Below are positions 3,613 through 34,029 of a stretch of DNA of 34,225 bases, piece by piece. The DNA is taken from the NCBI GenBank assembly GCA_030432925.1, contig JAUILT010000030.1, positions 1 to 34,225 on the forward strand. Direction: 5' to 3'. This stretch comes from Bdellovibrionia bacterium. Its GTDB lineage: Bacteria > Bdellovibrionota > Bdellovibrionia > Bdellovibrionales > UBA1609. Positions within the stretch are counted from its first letter, which is position 1. Each line of letters starts with the position of its first letter. The position numbers and the translations under genes were made by a program. The notes beneath the pieces were generated by a model, which was not told where the DNA came from, made no database searches, and was given only the letters and a program-made list of their open reading frames with translations.

Positions 3613-4200
3613 TTACCCTCTTATAAAAAATTTTGGAAATAGAGCGCCTGTTTTTTCTCTATATTGGTTGTAAGCCTCAGAAAATTCACCTAATTGAAAC
3701 TTACGCTCTTCATCATTTAATGCTTTGAAGTATAAGGCCACCATAAATATAACAGTGACAGCCATTAAAAGGTCCAATGTAAATAACACTACCGAAAAGT
3801 AACAAAGCAAATAAGAACTATAAAATGGATGTCTTACCCAACTAAAGGGTCCACAAGTTTCTAGGTGGGAAGGAGCCTCATTATTAAAAACAAGAGAGAA
3901 ATCCTTTTCTTTGATCCAATTTCTGGTTGCCCAAAAAATCCAAAGAGAAAAGAGGGCTAGTATCAAGGCCGGAATCTGTACCCACAAAACCAAAGAACTT
4001 TTTAAACTAATTGCATAAATGGAATAAACCCATGTCCATACACTGGATACCTGCAAAACCCGATACATGACAGAAATACTGCCTTTAGGTTTTCGAAAAA
4101 CCCCTATAACAGACCAAAGAAAACTCCCAAAACAAAGCAAAGTTATTGCCAAGAACAGTACTTGTAATATTAAAAATAAAATAGGTTCACTAGGGCTCAT
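3613..4200 (-). CDS. ICMT/PEMT-like membrane methyltransferase
   Basis: A 195-residue polytopic membrane protein with about five hydrophobic segments. The C-terminal half carries the signature of the isoprenylcysteine carboxyl methyltransferase / phospholipid methyltransferase superfamily: GPFSWVRHPFYSSY (RHPxY binds S-adenosylmethionine) followed by DEERKF and an FSEAYNQYREKTGALFP tail. Such enzymes methylate membrane-embedded, often carboxyl-bearing lipids. In bacteria the substrate is usually unknown. The gene starts 10 bases after the stop of the PilZ-FeeM gene, the third cistron of the operon with the cyclase. This context suggests, as inference only, that it acts on the acylated product of the upstream FeeM domain. 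No strong Shine-Dalgarno precedes the ATG, consistent with coupling. Confidence 0.78.
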   Translation of the reverse strand: MSPSEPILFLILQVLFLAITLLCFGSFLWSVIGVFRKPKGSISVMYRVLQVSSVWTWVYSIYAISLKSSLVLWVQIPALILALFSLWIFWATRNWIKEKDFSLVFNNEAPSHLETCGPFSWVRHPFYSSYLLCYFSVVLFTLDLLMAVTVIFMVALYFKALNDEERKFQLGEFSEAYNQYREKTGALFPKFFIRG

Positions 4201-4210
4201 AATCCAACTT

Positions 4211-5716
4211 CTAAGCTTTTATGAATGTTCTCTTCCGCTTTTTTGGTTTCAACCAGTACTTGTATACAAGTTGAGCCAAAGGAGCCAGTAGCCTGTAAAC
4301 TCCCATGCGAACCTTTCTAAATGAATCGGGCTTAAGTAATCCATAATTTTCCATGTACCTTGAGACTTCCTCCCAAACTAAATTCCACACTATCGGGTTA
4401 ACATTCATTCCACTCATTGCCTCTGGAACATTGGCTATCATCACTTTATGCTCAAGGTTGTTAAACATTTCTACCTTATAGCTGTGCCCCGTCTCAGTAA
4501 AACCAATTTTCTGGTACAAGGGCTTGAACTTTTCAGTCGTATTTATAACAATCCAAGGGCGACGTGATTGCACAACCGTCAAAGCAATAAATTGAAACAT
4601 CCCCATAAGTAAGTCGCTTCCCCGGAACTCTGGATGAGTACAAGCACGCATAATTTCTACAACTTTATCTCTACGTGGAAGGTCTGTCGACCATTCCATA
4701 AATTCTTCCTGCTCCATTCTTTCATCAATTTCATTGAATGTTAGTCTGGCTGTACACACAATTTTACCCTGATATCGGCCTATAACTATCCGAGATCTTG
4801 TGTCATAAATATCCGTCAAATCCGAAGCATTGGTCTGTAATGAAATTTTACCTTCATGAAGATAAGACAATCTTCGCAATTCTAATGCCTTCTGAAATTC
4901 CTCTTCTGTTTTTACAAAAGTATAATCCACGGCCTTTGATACCCTTGGTGTTTCTAAGCCCGATTCATATATTTCTCTGGGAGTTGTTCCTAATCCAAAC
5001 TGCATAAGATATTGCCCAATAGTCTCCCTGAGTTCTGGTGTTAACTCTTCAATCGTTACTCCAACAGCCAATTGCTCTACTCCTTGATCCATTATAATTC
5101 GAACATTTTCAACCTTTAGGATAGTGTGCAACTGAGCCACCATCGGAAAAGAAATCATACAGTCTATCCTCATGCCCACAACTATAAATTTATTTCGAAG
5201 GCTTGTTAGAAGTTGAAAACCAGTAGCTGACACATCACAAATTCGAAAATAAATAAAATCATTGAACTTAGCCGGATTAGGAGCGATACCTGTTGGTAAA
5301 AACTGAGGGGCACATAACCACCTTCGTTTTTTTCGACGCTCGCCCCCCTTATATTCATCTCCAGACGAAGCCTGAACCATACGAATTCCTATTCGATTCT
5401 CATTCACGCGAGGACAAACGTAATCAACAACAAGCCCTTTTATCGTCATCGATTGTGTTCCAATGGTTAGTTCTAAGTCTACTGGCAGCCCTTTAGGTAA
5501 CATTTCCTTTTCGGAGTTTACCTTCAACTCCACTCCAAGAGGGCTCATTTTCCAAACTTGCATTTCTCCTGAAAATGGGTACTTTGAATCTCGACTTCTC
5601 ACAACTGCGGATATTTGCTCTCCCTTTCTGACTTCTTCTGGAGTGAAGGGGCCATGTAACATTTGAAATGAACTCTGTTCTTCTTCAAACTCTCTAGCGG
5701 TTAATCCCACACTCAT
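4211..5716 (-). CDS. PilZ domain protein fused to N-acyl amino acid synthase (FeeM-type) domain
   Basis: A 501-residue cytosolic protein with three parts. Residues about 30-115 look like a PilZ-related beta domain. Residues about 125-240 are a PilZ domain with the c-di-GMP-binding RxxxR (RRKKRRW, 127-133) and DxSxxG (DVSATG, 161-166) motifs. Residues about 265-460 resemble the FeeM/GNAT-type N-acyl amino acid synthase domain (TEEEFQKALELR, RRDKVVEIMRAC, EFRGSDLLMGMFQF), which transfers an acyl chain from acyl carrier protein to an amino group. The likely reading is an acyltransferase gated by c-di-GMP. The ATG overlaps the cyclase stop (ATGA), with GGAGG five bases upstream, so translation is coupled. 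Domain identities are recognised from sequence; the acyl acceptor is unknown. Confidence 0.82.
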   Translation of the reverse strand: MSVGLTAREFEEEQSSFQMLHGPFTPEEVRKGEQISAVVRSRDSKYPFSGEMQVWKMSPLGVELKVNSEKEMLPKGLPVDLELTIGTQSMTIKGLVVDYVCPRVNENRIGIRMVQASSGDEYKGGERRKKRRWLCAPQFLPTGIAPNPAKFNDFIYFRICDVSATGFQLLTSLRNKFIVVGMRIDCMISFPMVAQLHTILKVENVRIIMDQGVEQLAVGVTIEELTPELRETIGQYLMQFGLGTTPREIYESGLETPRVSKAVDYTFVKTEEEFQKALELRRLSYLHEGKISLQTNASDLTDIYDTRSRIVIGRYQGKIVCTARLTFNEIDERMEQEEFMEWSTDLPRRDKVVEIMRACTHPEFRGSDLLMGMFQFIALTVVQSRRPWIVINTTEKFKPLYQKIGFTETGHSYKVEMFNNLEHKVMIANVPEAMSGMNVNPIVWNLVWEEVSRYMENYGLLKPDSFRKVRMGVYRLLAPLAQLVYKYWLKPKKRKRTFIKA

Positions 5717-7152
5717 GCTGCCTCCAATTTTGATTTTTCATACTGCTCAAGATACTTAAAAAACTGAACAACTACCGAGTAATTGTCTTCAGACACTGGG
5801 AGCAACCAAATTTCATCTACTTCAGAAAAATCACGAATTTCTAAACCTAGCTGTTTCAACTGAATTCTTTTCATTTGTAAGTTGAGACGCATAGCTTTTA
5901 TTGTTTCCGCAGCTTCTGAGGAAATAATCAAATCCATCTCACTAAGTTGTTCTTTGAGCTTTGGATGCTTCGAAGCATCGTCCAAACGACTTAGAAAGTT
6001 CACAGGAGAACCAAGCGCTGTAATCTCCACAGAAGAATTATATCCCCCCAAGTTACCCACAATGGCAGGACCCATGGCGATCAAAATATGTCTAGAAATC
6101 ATTGGCATATTTCGACTAGATCTATTAAATCGATAATTAATTTTGGCAACATCCATACCTGCCATAATAGCATTTAAGAGGTTCACTTTCTCACTACTGT
6201 CATCAAAATAAGCAAAAATCAAATCACCTATTTTTCGTGGAATTCCACTACAATGTTCAATGGCTTCAGTACAAGCTTTCACATTAGGCATTACCCCGTT
6301 TCCAATAAACTCTTCAAGATTTTTTGTTCCTTGAGTAAATCCTCTAATATCACTAAACAAACATGAAATATTTAATTTTTTAGGTCGCAAAACATCATCT
6401 ATAGCCTGTACCACTGTCATTTTTTCATGCCTAATATTATTATCAAGTCGTCGTGAGATTTCTTTAGGTAAAAAAGAACGAATCTGGTCTGTAAACTCTA
6501 AGTTGATTTCAATAGCTCTTTTTTGGGCCTCGATTCTTTGATGATTAGCTATAAAATACTTTACCTCCGAAAGGTATTTAGACCTAAGAAATACCGTGAA
6601 AGTCAACGTTACAACTGCGGCGCTACTGACCATTGTCATATCCAGACCTGCTTCCATAAAAGTTTGCCATAAACTGCCGATGATCAAGCATGAAAGTATC
6701 AGGCTATTTAACATGGATGAACGAATAATATAAACTGAGATCAAGACGAAAATGAAAGAATATAGATAGGGAACCTCTGAGTACCAGATGATGGTACGAG
6801 CTTGAAAGTAACAAAATATCCAACAAGCTATCAGCGCCGGAGCTTTGAAAAATCGCCTTTGGTACATCCATGGCCAAGAGTAAAATCCTAGGCAGACCAA
6901 AGCCAAAGCAGTCATTGCAAATCTGTAATTTCTCCATAATTCCTGTGGTTGCAAATTAAGAGGTACATCAAGAAAGAAGTAGTGAGCTAGATAAACTGGA
7001 GCTGCAACAGCAAAAAAAATTCTAGCTGTAAAAATAAACTCTCGACGCTCCTGATGAGACCACTCGCGATGCCACGGAGTGTCCTTCACTAGAAGGCTGG
7101 GGAATAAATAAAAGAAAATTTTCTCAAGCCACATCATAGAAGCAAATTCCAA
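5713..7152 (-). CDS. Membrane class III adenylate/guanylate cyclase
   Basis: A 479-residue protein with about six transmembrane helices in residues 40-195, a short helical linker (200-235) and a class III nucleotide cyclase domain from about residue 258. The two metal-binding aspartates are present, D268 in LFSDIRGFT and D310 in RKIGDLIFAYF. The transition-state pair N385 and R389 is present in VNFLSRL, so the enzyme should be active. The base-specifying positions do not let me choose cAMP over cGMP. It is the first gene of the operon with PilZ-FeeM and the methyltransferase. The start is uncertain: TTG at 7152 lies two bases behind AGGAGG, while the next ATG (7137) is rather far from it. Confidence 0.85.
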   Translation of the reverse strand: MEFASMMWLEKIFFYLFPSLLVKDTPWHREWSHQERREFIFTARIFFAVAAPVYLAHYFFLDVPLNLQPQELWRNYRFAMTALALVCLGFYSWPWMYQRRFFKAPALIACWIFCYFQARTIIWYSEVPYLYSFIFVLISVYIIRSSMLNSLILSCLIIGSLWQTFMEAGLDMTMVSSAAVVTLTFTVFLRSKYLSEVKYFIANHQRIEAQKRAIEINLEFTDQIRSFLPKEISRRLDNNIRHEKMTVVQAIDDVLRPKKLNISCLFSDIRGFTQGTKNLEEFIGNGVMPNVKACTEAIEHCSGIPRKIGDLIFAYFDDSSEKVNLLNAIMAGMDVAKINYRFNRSSRNMPMISRHILIAMGPAIVGNLGGYNSSVEITALGSPVNFLSRLDDASKHPKLKEQLSEMDLIISSEAAETIKAMRLNLQMKRIQLKQLGLEIRDFSEVDEIWLLPVSEDNYSVVVQFFKYLEQYEKSKLEAA

Positions 7153-7344: not shown

Positions 7345-9201
7345 TTAAGAAAGAATTTGATAGGTTACTACAGCCAAGCTCCATGCGATTAAATTCAGTA
7401 CAATCAGCTGTGTAAGAGCAAATCTCCATGAACGCATTTCACGAACGGCTATTGCAAAAGTCGACATACATTGCAACGCAATCATAAAGAAAACTAAAAT
7501 AGCCATAACCGAAGCAAAAGTAAATAGTGGAGACCCATCTGGCCATAAAGCGCCTTTCATACTACTTATCAGCGAGTTTGTAAGCCCTTCTTCAGTTTCT
7601 GAGGTGACCCCAAAAACAATAGCTAATGTAGAAACAAAAACCTCTCGAGCTGCAAATGCAGAAATCAACCCTATACCAATTCTCCAATCACTACCCATAG
7701 GTTCAAAAATAGGCTCAACCCACTGCCCAACTTGTCCAATATAACTGTTCTGCAGCTGTTGGGTTTCAGACATATCAAGTTGTCTTGGAAAAGTTGTGCC
7801 TAACCAGATCAACATTGCCAGCACAAAAATAATAGGACCAGCCCGGCGCACATAAGAGAGTGTCCTAGTTATTGCGGATCTCAATACAACTCTCAATGAA
7901 GGTCTTCTGTATAAAGGCAACTCCATAAGAAAGGACATTTCATTATCCGAAGGAAGCCATCGACTCAATACGGCCGCAGCTATAGCCCCCAAAATCAGTG
8001 CAGAAAAGTAGAGTCCAGCCAGAGCCAGTCCAGGTTTCCAAGCCGCATCTCCAAAAAATAAAAAACTTAATAATAATGCATATACTGGCAAGCGTGCTGA
8101 ACAGGTCATCAGAGGAATGATAAATAAAGCAATCCATCTCTCTGTTGCAGATCGGATATTTCTAGCTGCCATCATAGCAGGAACCGCACAAGCATAACCA
8201 GATAATAATGGAACAAATGATCGACCGCTCAACCCCACTGCAGAAAATGGTCGATCAATAAGAGTCGCCGCTCGAGCTAAATAACCGGTGTCTTCCAAAA
8301 AGCTGATTCCAAAAAACAAAATAAAAATTTGTGGGACAAATACCATCACCGCCCCTAGAGAAGCCACAAGACCATTGGAAAAAAAGTCTGCCCACAGGGA
8401 GCCTTCTCCTCCCCACTCCAAAATACTGTTTGCTAACCAAGAAAAACCCTCATCAACCCAACCCATGAACGGATCTGCCAACCAAAAAATGGAGGAGAAC
8501 AACGCAAACATCACTGTAAAAAACAATAGTAACCCTGCAATAGGGTGTAATAGAATATCATCCCAATAACGAGTACGATCAAAGTATGTGAGGTCTTCTG
8601 GATTCTTTTTGTTTTTTTGAACACGAGCACTCCAAATAGAGGCTTCTCTTTGAGCTTTTTTATATTTATCCTCACTCCACTCTTCAGGGGGATGAAAGCC
8701 CGATTTTCTCTCTAGCTTTCTCACCTCCTGTAGAAGCTCTGAAACCCCTCCCCCAAGCTGTCCATCAATAGGAACCACAGGCAGCTGCATCAGTTCAGAG
8801 AGCTGTTTGTCATCCAGATTCTGATTCTCTTTCCTAAGGAGGTCCGTCATAGTTAGGGCCACTACAGCAGGAATTCCTGACTCCTTGATCTGCTCCACTA
8901 AAGGCCACTGCCTTTGCCATTGAGTGGCGTCCATAACAACCACGGCACCTTGAACATCATATTCTTTGTAATTTTTAAAAAGTGTCTGATAAGTCACTTC
9001 CTCATCAAAGCTCTTGGGAAATAGAGAATAAGTACCAGGGGTATCGATAACCTCAAGACTCTCTCCGTATCGACCGTGGGTCTGCCCTAAATAACATTCA
9101 ACTGTAGCTCCAGGGTAATTCACCGCCCGAAATCTGGATCCGGTGAGCCAGTTAAACAATGTAGTCTTTCCTGAATTGGGCCTTCCCACAAGAGCAATCA
9201 T
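7345..9201 (-). CDS. feoB: Ferrous iron transporter FeoB
   Basis: A 618-residue inner-membrane Fe(II) permease with an N-terminal G domain. G1 is GRPNSGKT (6-13) and G3 is DTPG (53-56). G4, usually NxxD, reads TMTD at 117-120, so the guanine-contacting asparagine is a threonine. The membrane part has the FeoB signatures EDTGYLARA, SGYACAVPAMMA and PLMTCSARLPVY, including the two conserved cysteines in the Gate motifs. At 618 residues it is shorter than the usual 700-770, with a small linker and no long C-terminal extension. The start codon overlaps the stop of feoA by four bases, giving a feoAB operon. I see no convincing Fur box in front of feoA. Confidence 0.93.
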   Translation of the reverse strand: MIALVGRPNSGKTTLFNWLTGSRFRAVNYPGATVECYLGQTHGRYGESLEVIDTPGTYSLFPKSFDEEVTYQTLFKNYKEYDVQGAVVVMDATQWQRQWPLVEQIKESGIPAVVALTMTDLLRKENQNLDDKQLSELMQLPVVPIDGQLGGGVSELLQEVRKLERKSGFHPPEEWSEDKYKKAQREASIWSARVQKNKKNPEDLTYFDRTRYWDDILLHPIAGLLLFFTVMFALFSSIFWLADPFMGWVDEGFSWLANSILEWGGEGSLWADFFSNGLVASLGAVMVFVPQIFILFFGISFLEDTGYLARAATLIDRPFSAVGLSGRSFVPLLSGYACAVPAMMAARNIRSATERWIALFIIPLMTCSARLPVYALLLSFLFFGDAAWKPGLALAGLYFSALILGAIAAAVLSRWLPSDNEMSFLMELPLYRRPSLRVVLRSAITRTLSYVRRAGPIIFVLAMLIWLGTTFPRQLDMSETQQLQNSYIGQVGQWVEPIFEPMGSDWRIGIGLISAFAAREVFVSTLAIVFGVTSETEEGLTNSLISSMKGALWPDGSPLFTFASVMAILVFFMIALQCMSTFAIAVREMRSWRFALTQLIVLNLIAWSLAVVTYQILS

Positions 9202-17446: not shown

Positions 17447-18154
17447 TTAGGCCGCCAACCACTTATCAAAGTGCACTTCTTCTTCTTTTTTCTGGAGCGG
17501 CAGTATTTCAAGGCGCACCCGATAGTTAGGGTCCTGATCTTCAACAATAGAACAGGTCACCTCAATAGCCTGTTTGCGAGAGCTATCGATAATTTTTACC
17601 TGCAGATAGCCCACCACCCATCGAGGAAGAGGCTCCGTTAAAAGAATACCTCCTACAGATATATCTTTACTAAAAGAAGTAAAAGTCTGGCCATCCTTAC
17701 CAGTTACCTGAATCTTCATCTGTTTTTTGTAACGAGTAAAATTGCGTTTGACAAATCGCTTAAGCAGACCTGAGGCCGTTCCTGTTTTGCTCTCTAGCAC
17801 TTCAATATCCAAATCATTGCTATTGATATCAAAGTCACCTGTAGTTAGATCTTTGAACCTCCGCTCCATAGGCTCTTTATCGGAGTCAATAATCATAGAG
17901 TCTGTCATTGTTCCCGTTCGAACAGTCTCTACATCGGGAATGGGACCGTCCACTGTTCGGCTGATGGGTTCCATGAGCTGGTCTACTTCGCAGAGCTCTT
18001 TCCAGATATCCCAACCCTCTAACCAGACCATCCAGTCAACAAGCTCCTCTTTAGGCTGTGTTGTCACAAGAACACGCACCTCATTCAGAGTCAGCCCCTG
18101 AATGAACTCCCCACGAGACTTACAATAGAGACACCAAAGATTTTCCTTTGAAAT
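17447..18154 (-). CDS. PilZ domain protein with N-terminal GYF_2-like domain; probable ATT start
   Basis: About 235 residues when read from ATT 18154. The C-terminal 100 residues are a PilZ domain with RNFTRYKKQ and the DISVGGILL loop, so c-di-GMP binding is likely, though the first arginine motif is loose. The N-terminal 55 residues (ENLWCLYCKSRG...LTLNEVRVL...VWLEGWDIWKEL) resemble a GYF_2 (DUF4339) domain and are cut if the first usual codon, GTG 18079, is taken as start. AGGAGG (18160-18165) lies five bases before the ATT and overlaps the stop of the upstream coiled-coil gene. No ATG, GTG or TTG lies nearer in frame. The gene is therefore coupled to the one upstream. Confidence 0.75.
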   Translation of the reverse strand: MSKENLWCLYCKSRGEFIQGLTLNEVRVLVTTQPKEELVDWMVWLEGWDIWKELCEVDQLMEPISRTVDGPIPDVETVRTGTMTDSMIIDSDKEPMERRFKDLTTGDFDINSNDLDIEVLESKTGTASGLLKRFVKRNFTRYKKQMKIQVTGKDGQTFTSFSKDISVGGILLTEPLPRWVVGYLQVKIIDSSRKQAIEVTCSIVEDQDPNYRVRLEILPLQKKEEEVHFDKWLAA

Positions 18155-30401: not shown

Positions 30402-31289
30402 TCAGGCTCCCAAGACCTGAAAGTTGTCAGTGATCAGAGTTGAGAGTTCTTTGCGATATTTTCTGATTCCCCTCATGAACCTCATAATCTCAGACCGGAA
30501 TATTTCTAGGTCAGGGAAATAGTTATTGGCCATGACCTTTTGTTTAATGAACCTCCAAAGCCTTTCAATCGGGTTCAGGTTTGGGGAGTATGGCGGCAGA
30601 TACAGCAACCGTATCTCAAGTCTCGCTGCCAAGTCCCTTACGACTCTCGATCTATTGTACGGAGCATTATCTAAAACCAAGTATATTTTTTCCTCATCTG
30701 GATTCTTAGCTCTAATGGCTCGCAGTAAATCACACATCGAGTAGCGATCCACGGTTTCACAACTTCTTGCCACAACATCCAAAGACCCTATCTCAATGGC
30801 TCCATTAATATTGACTCTTTGTCTACCGGAGTTGGTTTTGACTTCAAAATCTTCCCCCTTTTTAATCCAGCCAGAAGACAGCACAGGATTCAACATGGGG
30901 TGAGTGGAATCGGCGAAATACACTGGGTCATGGGCTTTCACAGCATTGTATTGGTTGATAAATCTTCTTTGTGCTTCTGCATTGGCCTTGCCTGGAACTC
31001 CCTTTGGCTTTTTGTAACTGAACCCGAGTTGGTGCAGAAGATCGGTGACGCCACCGACTGAGTAGATCACGCCAAACTCAGACTTGATGAACTCTATTAC
31101 TGACTTCGTTGTGGGATATACTTTTGACTCGAGTTCCAGCATCAAAAGAAGCTGTTGTTCATCAGTCAGAAAGGCTTTTCTGCCAATATAGTGGTCATTG
31201 ACAAGCCTTTCAATACCGCCCTCTTCATATCGCTTACGATAGTTTCGAACAGAGCCCTCATCCATGAATAGCCGGATATCTAAAAGCAT
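30402..31289 (-). pseudogene. IS630-type transposase, N-terminally truncated
   Basis: A 295-residue frame with the IS630/Tc1-mariner DDE core: D127 in VYFADSTH, D207 in YLVLDNAPYN and E242 in NLNPIERLWRF. A second helix-turn-helix (about 40-95) is present. Family members are usually near 340 residues, and here the first helix-turn-helix (about 45 residues) is missing. The ATG follows directly on the T-run of a terminator, so the gene has no promoter or ribosome site of its own. The catalytic part is intact, but expression is unlikely. No inverted terminal repeats were found. Confidence 0.82.
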
Positions 31290-32997: not shown

Positions 32998-33036
32998 ATT
33001 CACTCAATTGATCTGTGTATTCCAACTGAATCAGTA

Positions 33037-33309
33037 TTAATAGACAAATTTAAACATAGCCTGAACCACAGTTTCATTGAATCCCGGGTCTGGAGTGCCT
33101 TCCGAATCACGCACTCCTTTTTTCAGATAGCGGTTCAAAGCATAGGAATATTCCAGTCCCACCAATGCGGACCCTTTTTTAGAATCGGTCATGGTGCTGA
33201 TATCATAAAGCACCTGAGGTTGAGTCATCAAAAAGATATGGTCTTTATGCTCCGGAATCAATCCATAAGCAAAAAAACCAGTGAACTGAAACTTTCTGGC
33301 AAAAGGAAG
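33037..33309 (-). CDS. C-terminal fragment of an outer-membrane beta-barrel protein
   Basis: The last 90 or so residues of a barrel protein. The alternating pattern (QFTGFFAYGLIPEHKDHIFL, SALVGLEYSYALNRYLKKG) and the ending VVQAMFKFVY, with an aromatic last residue, are typical of outer-membrane strands recognised by the BAM machinery. The N-terminal part is missing: in the same frame the sequence changes at about 33300-33312 to a GC-rich, all-helical membrane protein. I therefore treat this as a partial gene at an assembly join, not a fusion protein. Confidence 0.7.
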   Translation of the reverse strand, partial: LPFARKFQFTGFFAYGLIPEHKDHIFLMTQPQVLYDISTMTDSKKGSALVGLEYSYALNRYLKKGVRDSEGTPDPGFNETVVQAMFKFVY

Positions 33310-34029
33310 CAGCCAAAAATGAGGCGATGTTTGTCGTCTGACGATCGCCCATATCGACGTCAGAAAAGCGACCGCAAGCATCCCAACGGATGGAAGCGAC
33401 ATAGACACGAATTCCGGAAGGAACTTAAGTCGAACCAGAAATTCTACGTCTGTCTTTGCGTAAAACGTTAACGGAAGAATGTCGCCATAATATGTATATC
33501 GCCAGCCCATATGGGCAAATGAAACAAGGGCGGGTACGCCAACAACAATGACGGCAGGCAATAAACGTTTCTGAAATGTGCCGGTACCCCCCATTAGCAG
33601 ACCTGCACCCGCGCCTGCGATAAAAACTGCAATATCAAGACGGGTCAAAACAGCCAACGAAAATGCAAGTGCGGCCCATAAAATGTTGCGTGGCGCAGCC
33701 GCCTTGCCCGCAATAGGAACAAGTGCCAACAGGCCCGCAGTTGCAAACGTTGATACAACCACGGCTTCAAGGCCACCCATTACCCATATTGCTATTGCAG
33801 GTGTTGCCGCGGTTGCCACAACGATGGATGCACGTGCCAATCTTGCCTGTGAACCTGGCAGGATAAGCCGCGATGCATAAACTTGCATTATCAGCATCGA
33901 AATTGCAGCGGCTAAGTTGATGATTTGGACGGCATAGGTAGGGTCGATACCGAACTTGATCGGTACCGCGCTGATCAGCACGTACAGGAAATTCGTGTAT
34001 CCCTCGACATATTCACCAAGGTTCCACGT
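33310..34029 (-). CDS. Fragment of a polytopic membrane glycosyltransferase-like protein (foreign)
   Basis: About 240 codons, open at both ends. They start with [17 protein letters not shown] and contain many Ala/Val/Ile-rich helices, [10 protein letters not shown], and the [16 protein letters not shown] segment. The EGYTN and YYGDxLPxTFYAK motifs occur in GT-C-type membrane glycosyltransferases of actinobacteria and alphaproteobacteria. The codon usage is clearly GC-richer than the genes before 33300. Both the N-terminal and the C-terminal parts are lost at joins. It probably comes from another organism in the sample. Confidence 0.6.

Follow-up and report, generated by a model that had tools for sequence, protein, structure and literature searches.

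Proteins that join PilZ domains to a putative N-acyl amino acid synthase domain (PilZ-NAS) and class III cyclases appear to be functionally coupled in Bdellovibrionota. The domain content and this coupling, both proposed in a first-pass annotation of the DNA, are supported by conserved gene order, by recurring coupling to different class III cyclases and by gene fusions. In the contig of a Bdellovibrionia bacterium analysed here (34,225 nucleotides, referred to as the window), a cyclase gene, a PilZ-NAS gene and a methyltransferase gene follow one another on the minus strand (Table 1). All three open reading frames were found as claimed: the cyclase gene shares 4 bases (ATGA) with the PilZ-NAS gene, whose stop is separated from the methyltransferase start by 10 bases. 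The unit spans 3613-7152 and runs past the limit of 4211 first noted for it. FeoB (7345-9201), the next gene upstream on this strand, is 192 bases away and the gene downstream of the methyltransferase gene is convergent, so the unit is taken to consist of these three genes; promoter and terminator scans of the operon gave no signals above those of shuffled sequence. The cyclase reading frame begins with TTG at 7152, with an AGGAGG ending just two bases before it; homologues begin aligning at about 7137, where an ATG is the likelier true start.

Table 1 Features of the three-gene unit (positions in the window)
Feature	Position	Strand	Basis or residues
Membrane class III cyclase gene	5713-7152	-	ORF
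Predicted membrane sensor domain of the cyclase (residues ~30-205)	6538..7065	-	profile A2 against L087
Class III cyclase catalytic domain	5923..6405	-	D268 and D310 (metals), R306, T378, N385, R389
PilZ-NAS gene	4211-5716	-	ORF
First PilZ-like module, degenerate	5372..5629	-	alignment A1, motif table; VWKMSPLGVEL, no RxxxR
Second PilZ domain, c-di-GMP-type	4997..5359	-	ERRKKRRW and DVSATG
NAS (FeeM/LuxI-like GNAT) domain	4415..4903	-	Pfam FeeM, Glu354-x-x-Arg357
Methyltransferase gene	3613-4200	-	ORF

Co-occurrence of the three genes in this order, the test that the first-pass annotation had set for itself, was surveyed in 144 Bdellovibrionia genomes. PilZ-NAS relatives were present in 16 of them and a full-length cyclase of the window type (profile A2) in six, in every case directly upstream of PilZ-NAS. 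The six highest methyltransferase scores (profile A3) among the 144 belonged to the same six genomes; the gene was adjacent to the pair in five, and in G105 an intact 200-aa homologue, the sixth best of the class, lies elsewhere. Weaker methyltransferase relatives were found in eight further genomes. The system was absent from the same-genus genomes G008 and G009, which we counted against the mechanism proposed below, and a scan of genome contigs returned one locus only, coinciding with G061.

Across the phylum, PilZ-NAS was found in 41 of 369 genomes, and 35 loci, picked by the NAS protein alone, were read with their flanks. A class III cyclase was present at 27 of these loci, fused to PilZ-NAS in 7 and within 1.5 kb in 20. 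Five of the eight loci without one (L024, L031, L033, L084, L089) are truncated at a contig end or fragmentary and L088 is a partial match, which leaves L073 and L074 as clear exceptions. Pfam-detectable class III cyclases number about two per genome, and adjacency within two genes is estimated to arise by chance at about 0.5% (about three cyclases including divergent ones, about 3000 genes; the loci are not independent). Homologues of the window cyclase, here called six-TM cyclases, lie directly upstream of PilZ-NAS in 10 loci besides the window; their membrane segments were assigned by Kyte-Doolittle hydropathy only, which resolves 2-5 and makes six an approximate figure. Related genomes conserve the order cyclase, PilZ-NAS, methyltransferase, the genes overlapping or standing a few bases apart: it was observed in the window, L019/L007 (UBA4095), L020, L022, L023 and L070. 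In L072 the order of the first two genes is kept and the methyltransferase gene is convergent, and in L021, L071, L075 and L076 the methyltransferase is not adjacent. Distances between PilZ-NAS proteins correlate with those between their cyclases (r 0.84 over 10 loci, uncorrected for shared ancestry).

Coupling to a class III cyclase is retained although the partner changes between the six-TM and GAF types. On a tree of the NAS domain, which is short and leaves many forks weak, the six-TM partner required 4 changes (9.6 when shuffled) and the GAF partner 5 (8.2 when shuffled), and fusions required 2. The fusion proteins (L029, L030, L032, L079, L080, L082, L083) are about 1000-1180 aa long and consist of PilZ-NAS followed by a whole GAF-class III cyclase. 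At all seven fusion loci an HDO-type gene lies directly 3' of the fusion, and an HDO-fold iron redox enzyme is usual at GAF and fusion loci, where the methyltransferase is absent. Such a gene was also found near PilZ-NAS, again without the methyltransferase, in L024, L025-L028, L078, L085 and L086; in L025-L028 it stands between the NAS and cyclase genes on the opposite strand. PF14518 was matched in L024, L025 and L028, and the other HDO genes were recognised by a local profile; Glu, His and Asp positions are conserved in these enzymes. Linkage to the methyltransferase is confined to the six-TM form. The module is thus a constant core of PilZ-NAS and cyclase with a changing accessory enzyme, and the accessory enzymes may provide alternative tailoring in a biosynthetic pathway. 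Taken together, gene fusion and recurrent neighbourhood suggest that c-di-GMP, class III cyclases and small-lipid synthesis are directly linked.

The window cyclase has no Pfam match; it matches the solved class III cyclase CyaB (PDB 3r5g) at 2e-7, and profile A2 matches the PDB adenylate cyclases 1wc1 (1.5e-12) and CyaB 3r5g (6e-11). The statement that it has all catalytic residues is correct for D268, D310, T378, N385 and R389, but not for the substrate-specifying lysine, which is Arg306. The metal-binding aspartates D268 and D310 and the transition-state residues N385 and R389 mark the protein as a class III nucleotidyl cyclase; from the substrate Lys and Asp/Thr pair typical of class III adenylate cyclases it has T378, with Arg306 replacing the Lys. 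Owing to this replacement we have filed it as a class III cyclase with cAMP as the probable product, not as a proven adenylate cyclase. The exchange could mean weaker or altered activity. Counting that of the window, there are 11 linked six-TM cyclases, of which eight have Arg at this position and three Lys, and the Lys is kept in every GAF-type and fused coupled cyclase. Every coupled cyclase whose sequence covers the region keeps the metal and transition-state residues, and the equivalent of Thr378 is Ser in L021 and L076. The class IIIb adenylate cyclases CyaC (1wc1) and CyaB (3r5g) therefore have the metal Asp pair, Thr, Asn and Arg in common with the window cyclase, which differs from them in the Arg at the substrate site and in an unclassified membrane domain. 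The latter has no Pfam match either. Positions 3-219 of A2, however, match a protein of another locus (L087:3377-4657) at 9.7e-34, the C-terminus of which is HATPase_c (82 bits), i.e. that of a histidine kinase; the membrane domain is thus an exchangeable input module, and it may resemble the CqsS or PhcS sensors.

The PilZ-NAS protein matched Pfam FeeM (PF21926, residues 277-411) with 35.3 bits (cut-off 27) and Pfam PilZ with 26.6 bits (cut-off 22.5), and the FeeM cut-off was reached by 7 of 7 members scored. Of 35 members aligned, 34 retain Glu354 (VVEIMR, ExxR motif), which, judged by its motif, is the probable counterpart of FeeM Glu95. In alignment A1, numbered without Met1, R280, Y284, K289, D304 and E353 are kept among relatives, most of which retain the pattern of Arg, Tyr, Asp and ExxR that presumably resembles the motifs of NAS and AHL synthases. 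Profile A4 of the NAS domain retrieved only generic GNAT structures from the PDB and did not reach FeeM 2G0B, and an AlphaFold model of the domain made from two sequences (window and L007) had a pLDDT of 40; the NAS assignment therefore rests on Pfam FeeM and the ExxR motif. What had been described as an intact c-di-GMP-type PilZ domain joined to a FeeM-type domain is in fact a tandem of two PilZ-like modules, only the second of which has RxxxR and DxSxxG, the first being degenerate. The c-di-GMP-binding signature (RxxxR, [DN]xSxxG) is found in this second domain both in the window and in the five other class genomes with the six-TM pair. Elsewhere the modules vary: Pfam PilZ matches the position of the first in L025 and L030, several GAF-type relatives have it intact, the GAF-type loci L025-L028 are reversed (first intact, second degenerate), and in other loci both are intact or neither is. 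The motif of the second domain, conserved in close relatives, suggests that PilZ-NAS is gated by c-di-GMP. None of the PilZ-NAS proteins scanned has a cNMP-binding domain, which leaves cAMP without an obvious way of acting directly on the synthase.

The third gene had been called an ICMT-like methyltransferase, a description that we retain. Its product passes Pfam PEMT (30.9 bits, cut-off 25), falls just below Pfam ICMT (23.3 bits, cut-off 24), which is passed by the homologues in L020, L022, L070 and L072, and does not reach the NCBIfam isoprenylcysteine methyltransferase equivalog (51 bits, cut-off 160). Profile A3 matches the bacterial ICMT structure 4a2n nearly over its full length (1.9e-10), and weaker matches include the LmtA and methanethiol methyltransferase models. 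The RHPFY motif (residues 123-127) is invariant in five homologues and, as RHPxY with Pfam PEMT, places the protein in the PEMT/ICMT superfamily; the C-terminus carries EExxF...YxxYxxxTGxxFP. It thus has RHPxY and the C-terminal SAM-binding region in common with ICMT 4a2n and the PEMT family, and is unlike them in its linkage to NAS and in its score far under the NCBIfam cut-off. The substrate of ICMT is a lipidated amino acid, prenylated cysteine, whose carboxyl group it methylates, and an N-acyl amino acid is therefore a chemically plausible substrate for this enzyme.

Parts of the module have precedents. The metagenomic PilZ-linked synthases Nas343 and Nas354, for which a catalytic-Glu mutant was reported, make N-acyltyrosine, and their genes were reported outside any biosynthetic operon (PMC4897644). 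They are PilZ-linked NAS with a catalytic Glu, as in the window, but have NAS first and PilZ after, whereas the window protein has the tandem PilZ part first; their paper mentions neither a cyclase nor a methyltransferase, both of which the window has (PMC4897644). A cyclic-nucleotide link to NAS is likewise on record in NasP, which, as cited in PMC4897644, is a NAS activated by cAMP directly; the window NAS has a coupled cyclase gene instead of a cNMP-binding domain. Direct cAMP activation of the NasP kind was considered and set aside for the scanned PilZ-NAS proteins, which lack that domain. FeeM and LuxI-type acyltransferases share the Pfam FeeM match and the ExxR motif with the window NAS, which adds the tandem PilZ regulatory part and the cyclase coupling. 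NAS genes clustered with tailoring genes have been described before (PMC12479983, PMC10404671). In the literature searched there was no description of a NAS coupled to a class III cyclase, of the three-gene composition or of a cyclase accompanying a Bdellovibrio PilZ acyltransferase, and NCBIfam, PHROGs and PADLOC searches gave no specific assignment. The claim that no such system had been described accordingly stands, within that literature, for the cyclase coupling to PilZ-NAS and for the three-gene set; it does not extend to the PilZ-NAS fusion, published in reversed order, or to a link between cAMP and NAS, known from the citation of NasP.

From these results a mechanism may be proposed, which in our estimation has an even chance of being right: the operon would be a combined lipid-synthesis and second-messenger module. 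Taking a fatty acyl group from acyl-ACP or acyl-CoA, PilZ-NAS would attach it to an amino acid or a similar small amine through the amino group, and this transfer would be switched, either on or off, by c-di-GMP bound to the second PilZ domain. The lipid formed would then have its carboxyl group methyl-esterified by the ICMT-like enzyme of the membrane, a capping reaction that ICMT performs on prenylated cysteine. Lipid output would be set jointly with the level of a cyclic nucleotide, in all likelihood cAMP, which the co-translated membrane cyclase would make. We infer the substrates, the direction of c-di-GMP control, the methyl ester, the cAMP product and the place of the cyclase before or after the synthase; the sequence of an N-acyl amino acid and then its methyl ester would fit the enzyme families. 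The messengers themselves can plausibly be made and read in the same genome, which has matches to 7 GGDEF, 12 PilZ and 14 cNMP-binding domains and to two further class III cyclases. A search of it (G000) that covered EAL only gave no EAL match, and c-di-GMP must be broken down there by something other than EAL. Cross-talk of the two messengers is known in this phylum from Bd1971, a cAMP-responsive c-di-GMP phosphodiesterase (PMC6717892). A cNMP-binding-EAL protein of Bd1971-like architecture occurs at L024:3535-4848, beside HDO and metallo-beta-lactamase-fold genes; as a general link such a relay was rejected, being near PilZ-NAS in this locus only and the own genome having no EAL match. A second gene for a PilZ domain, standing alone, is located at 17447-18079 of the window.

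Among other explanations, the one that fares best, unlikely as we consider it, is that the cyclase membrane domain detects a diffusible N-acyl amino acid methyl ester, the joint product of NAS and methyltransferase, and that cAMP is the read-out inside the cell, i.e. a quorum-sensing-like circuit with the cyclase as receptor. It would account for an exchangeable membrane domain that also occurs on a histidine kinase (L087), and for a synthase and putative receptor that are coupled at 27 of 35 loci even where the cyclase is swapped. NAS and AHL synthases have a common fold (PMC10404671), and N-acyl alanine methyl esters are known as analogues of AHLs; the genes for their synthesis were reported as unknown (PMC11580390). 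Against it, lipid binding by the membrane domain is putative, the GAF-type cyclases have no membrane domain, and the GAF and fusion loci have no methyltransferase. Its extension to a lineage-wide circuit, in which the cyclase senses a c-di-GMP-gated N-acyl amino acid (methyl ester) and answers with cAMP, is more doubtful still; if true, one lipid would tie c-di-GMP and cAMP signalling together across Bdellovibrionota, a phylum known for bacterial predators.

Returning to the ester-forming pathway, two of its steps could be read differently, each with rather low probability. The methyltransferase might act elsewhere, since other lipids and thiols are also substrates within its family, which we counted against the proposed mechanism: with a phospholipid amine, quinone or thiol as substrate there would be no acyl amino acid ester, and the neighbouring genes would jointly regulate membrane composition. 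That the window protein passes Pfam PEMT and not ICMT, has the weaker LmtA and methanethiol methyltransferase matches and is missing from the GAF and fusion types is compatible with this; the nearly full-length match to 4a2n and a gene that tracks the NAS-cyclase pair are not so easily explained. Similarly, the acyltransferase could be a c-di-GMP-regulated GNAT for protein lysine or another amine, the name FeeM being misleading, as would suit the generic GNAT matches in the PDB and the variation among relatives outside the ExxR core; the Pfam FeeM cut-off reached throughout the scored members and the Arg, Tyr, Asp and ExxR residues kept in most argue for NAS. Fortuitous neighbours or a Pycsar-like defence system are very improbable, as the weak PycC match (E 0.003) spans the cyclase domain only, the operon has no TIR or TM effector gene, and coupling at 27 of 35 loci with fusions speaks against chance.

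Outside the operon, a long open reading frame without a Pfam match (33037-33981) was noted near the contig end. GC content changes from about 0.36-0.41 near 33000 to 0.50-0.58 past 33500, which may reflect an assembly join. Transposase-like genes lie near both contig ends, at 161-1318 (rve-type, under the Pfam cut-off) and 30402-31289 (DDE_3 with winged helix).
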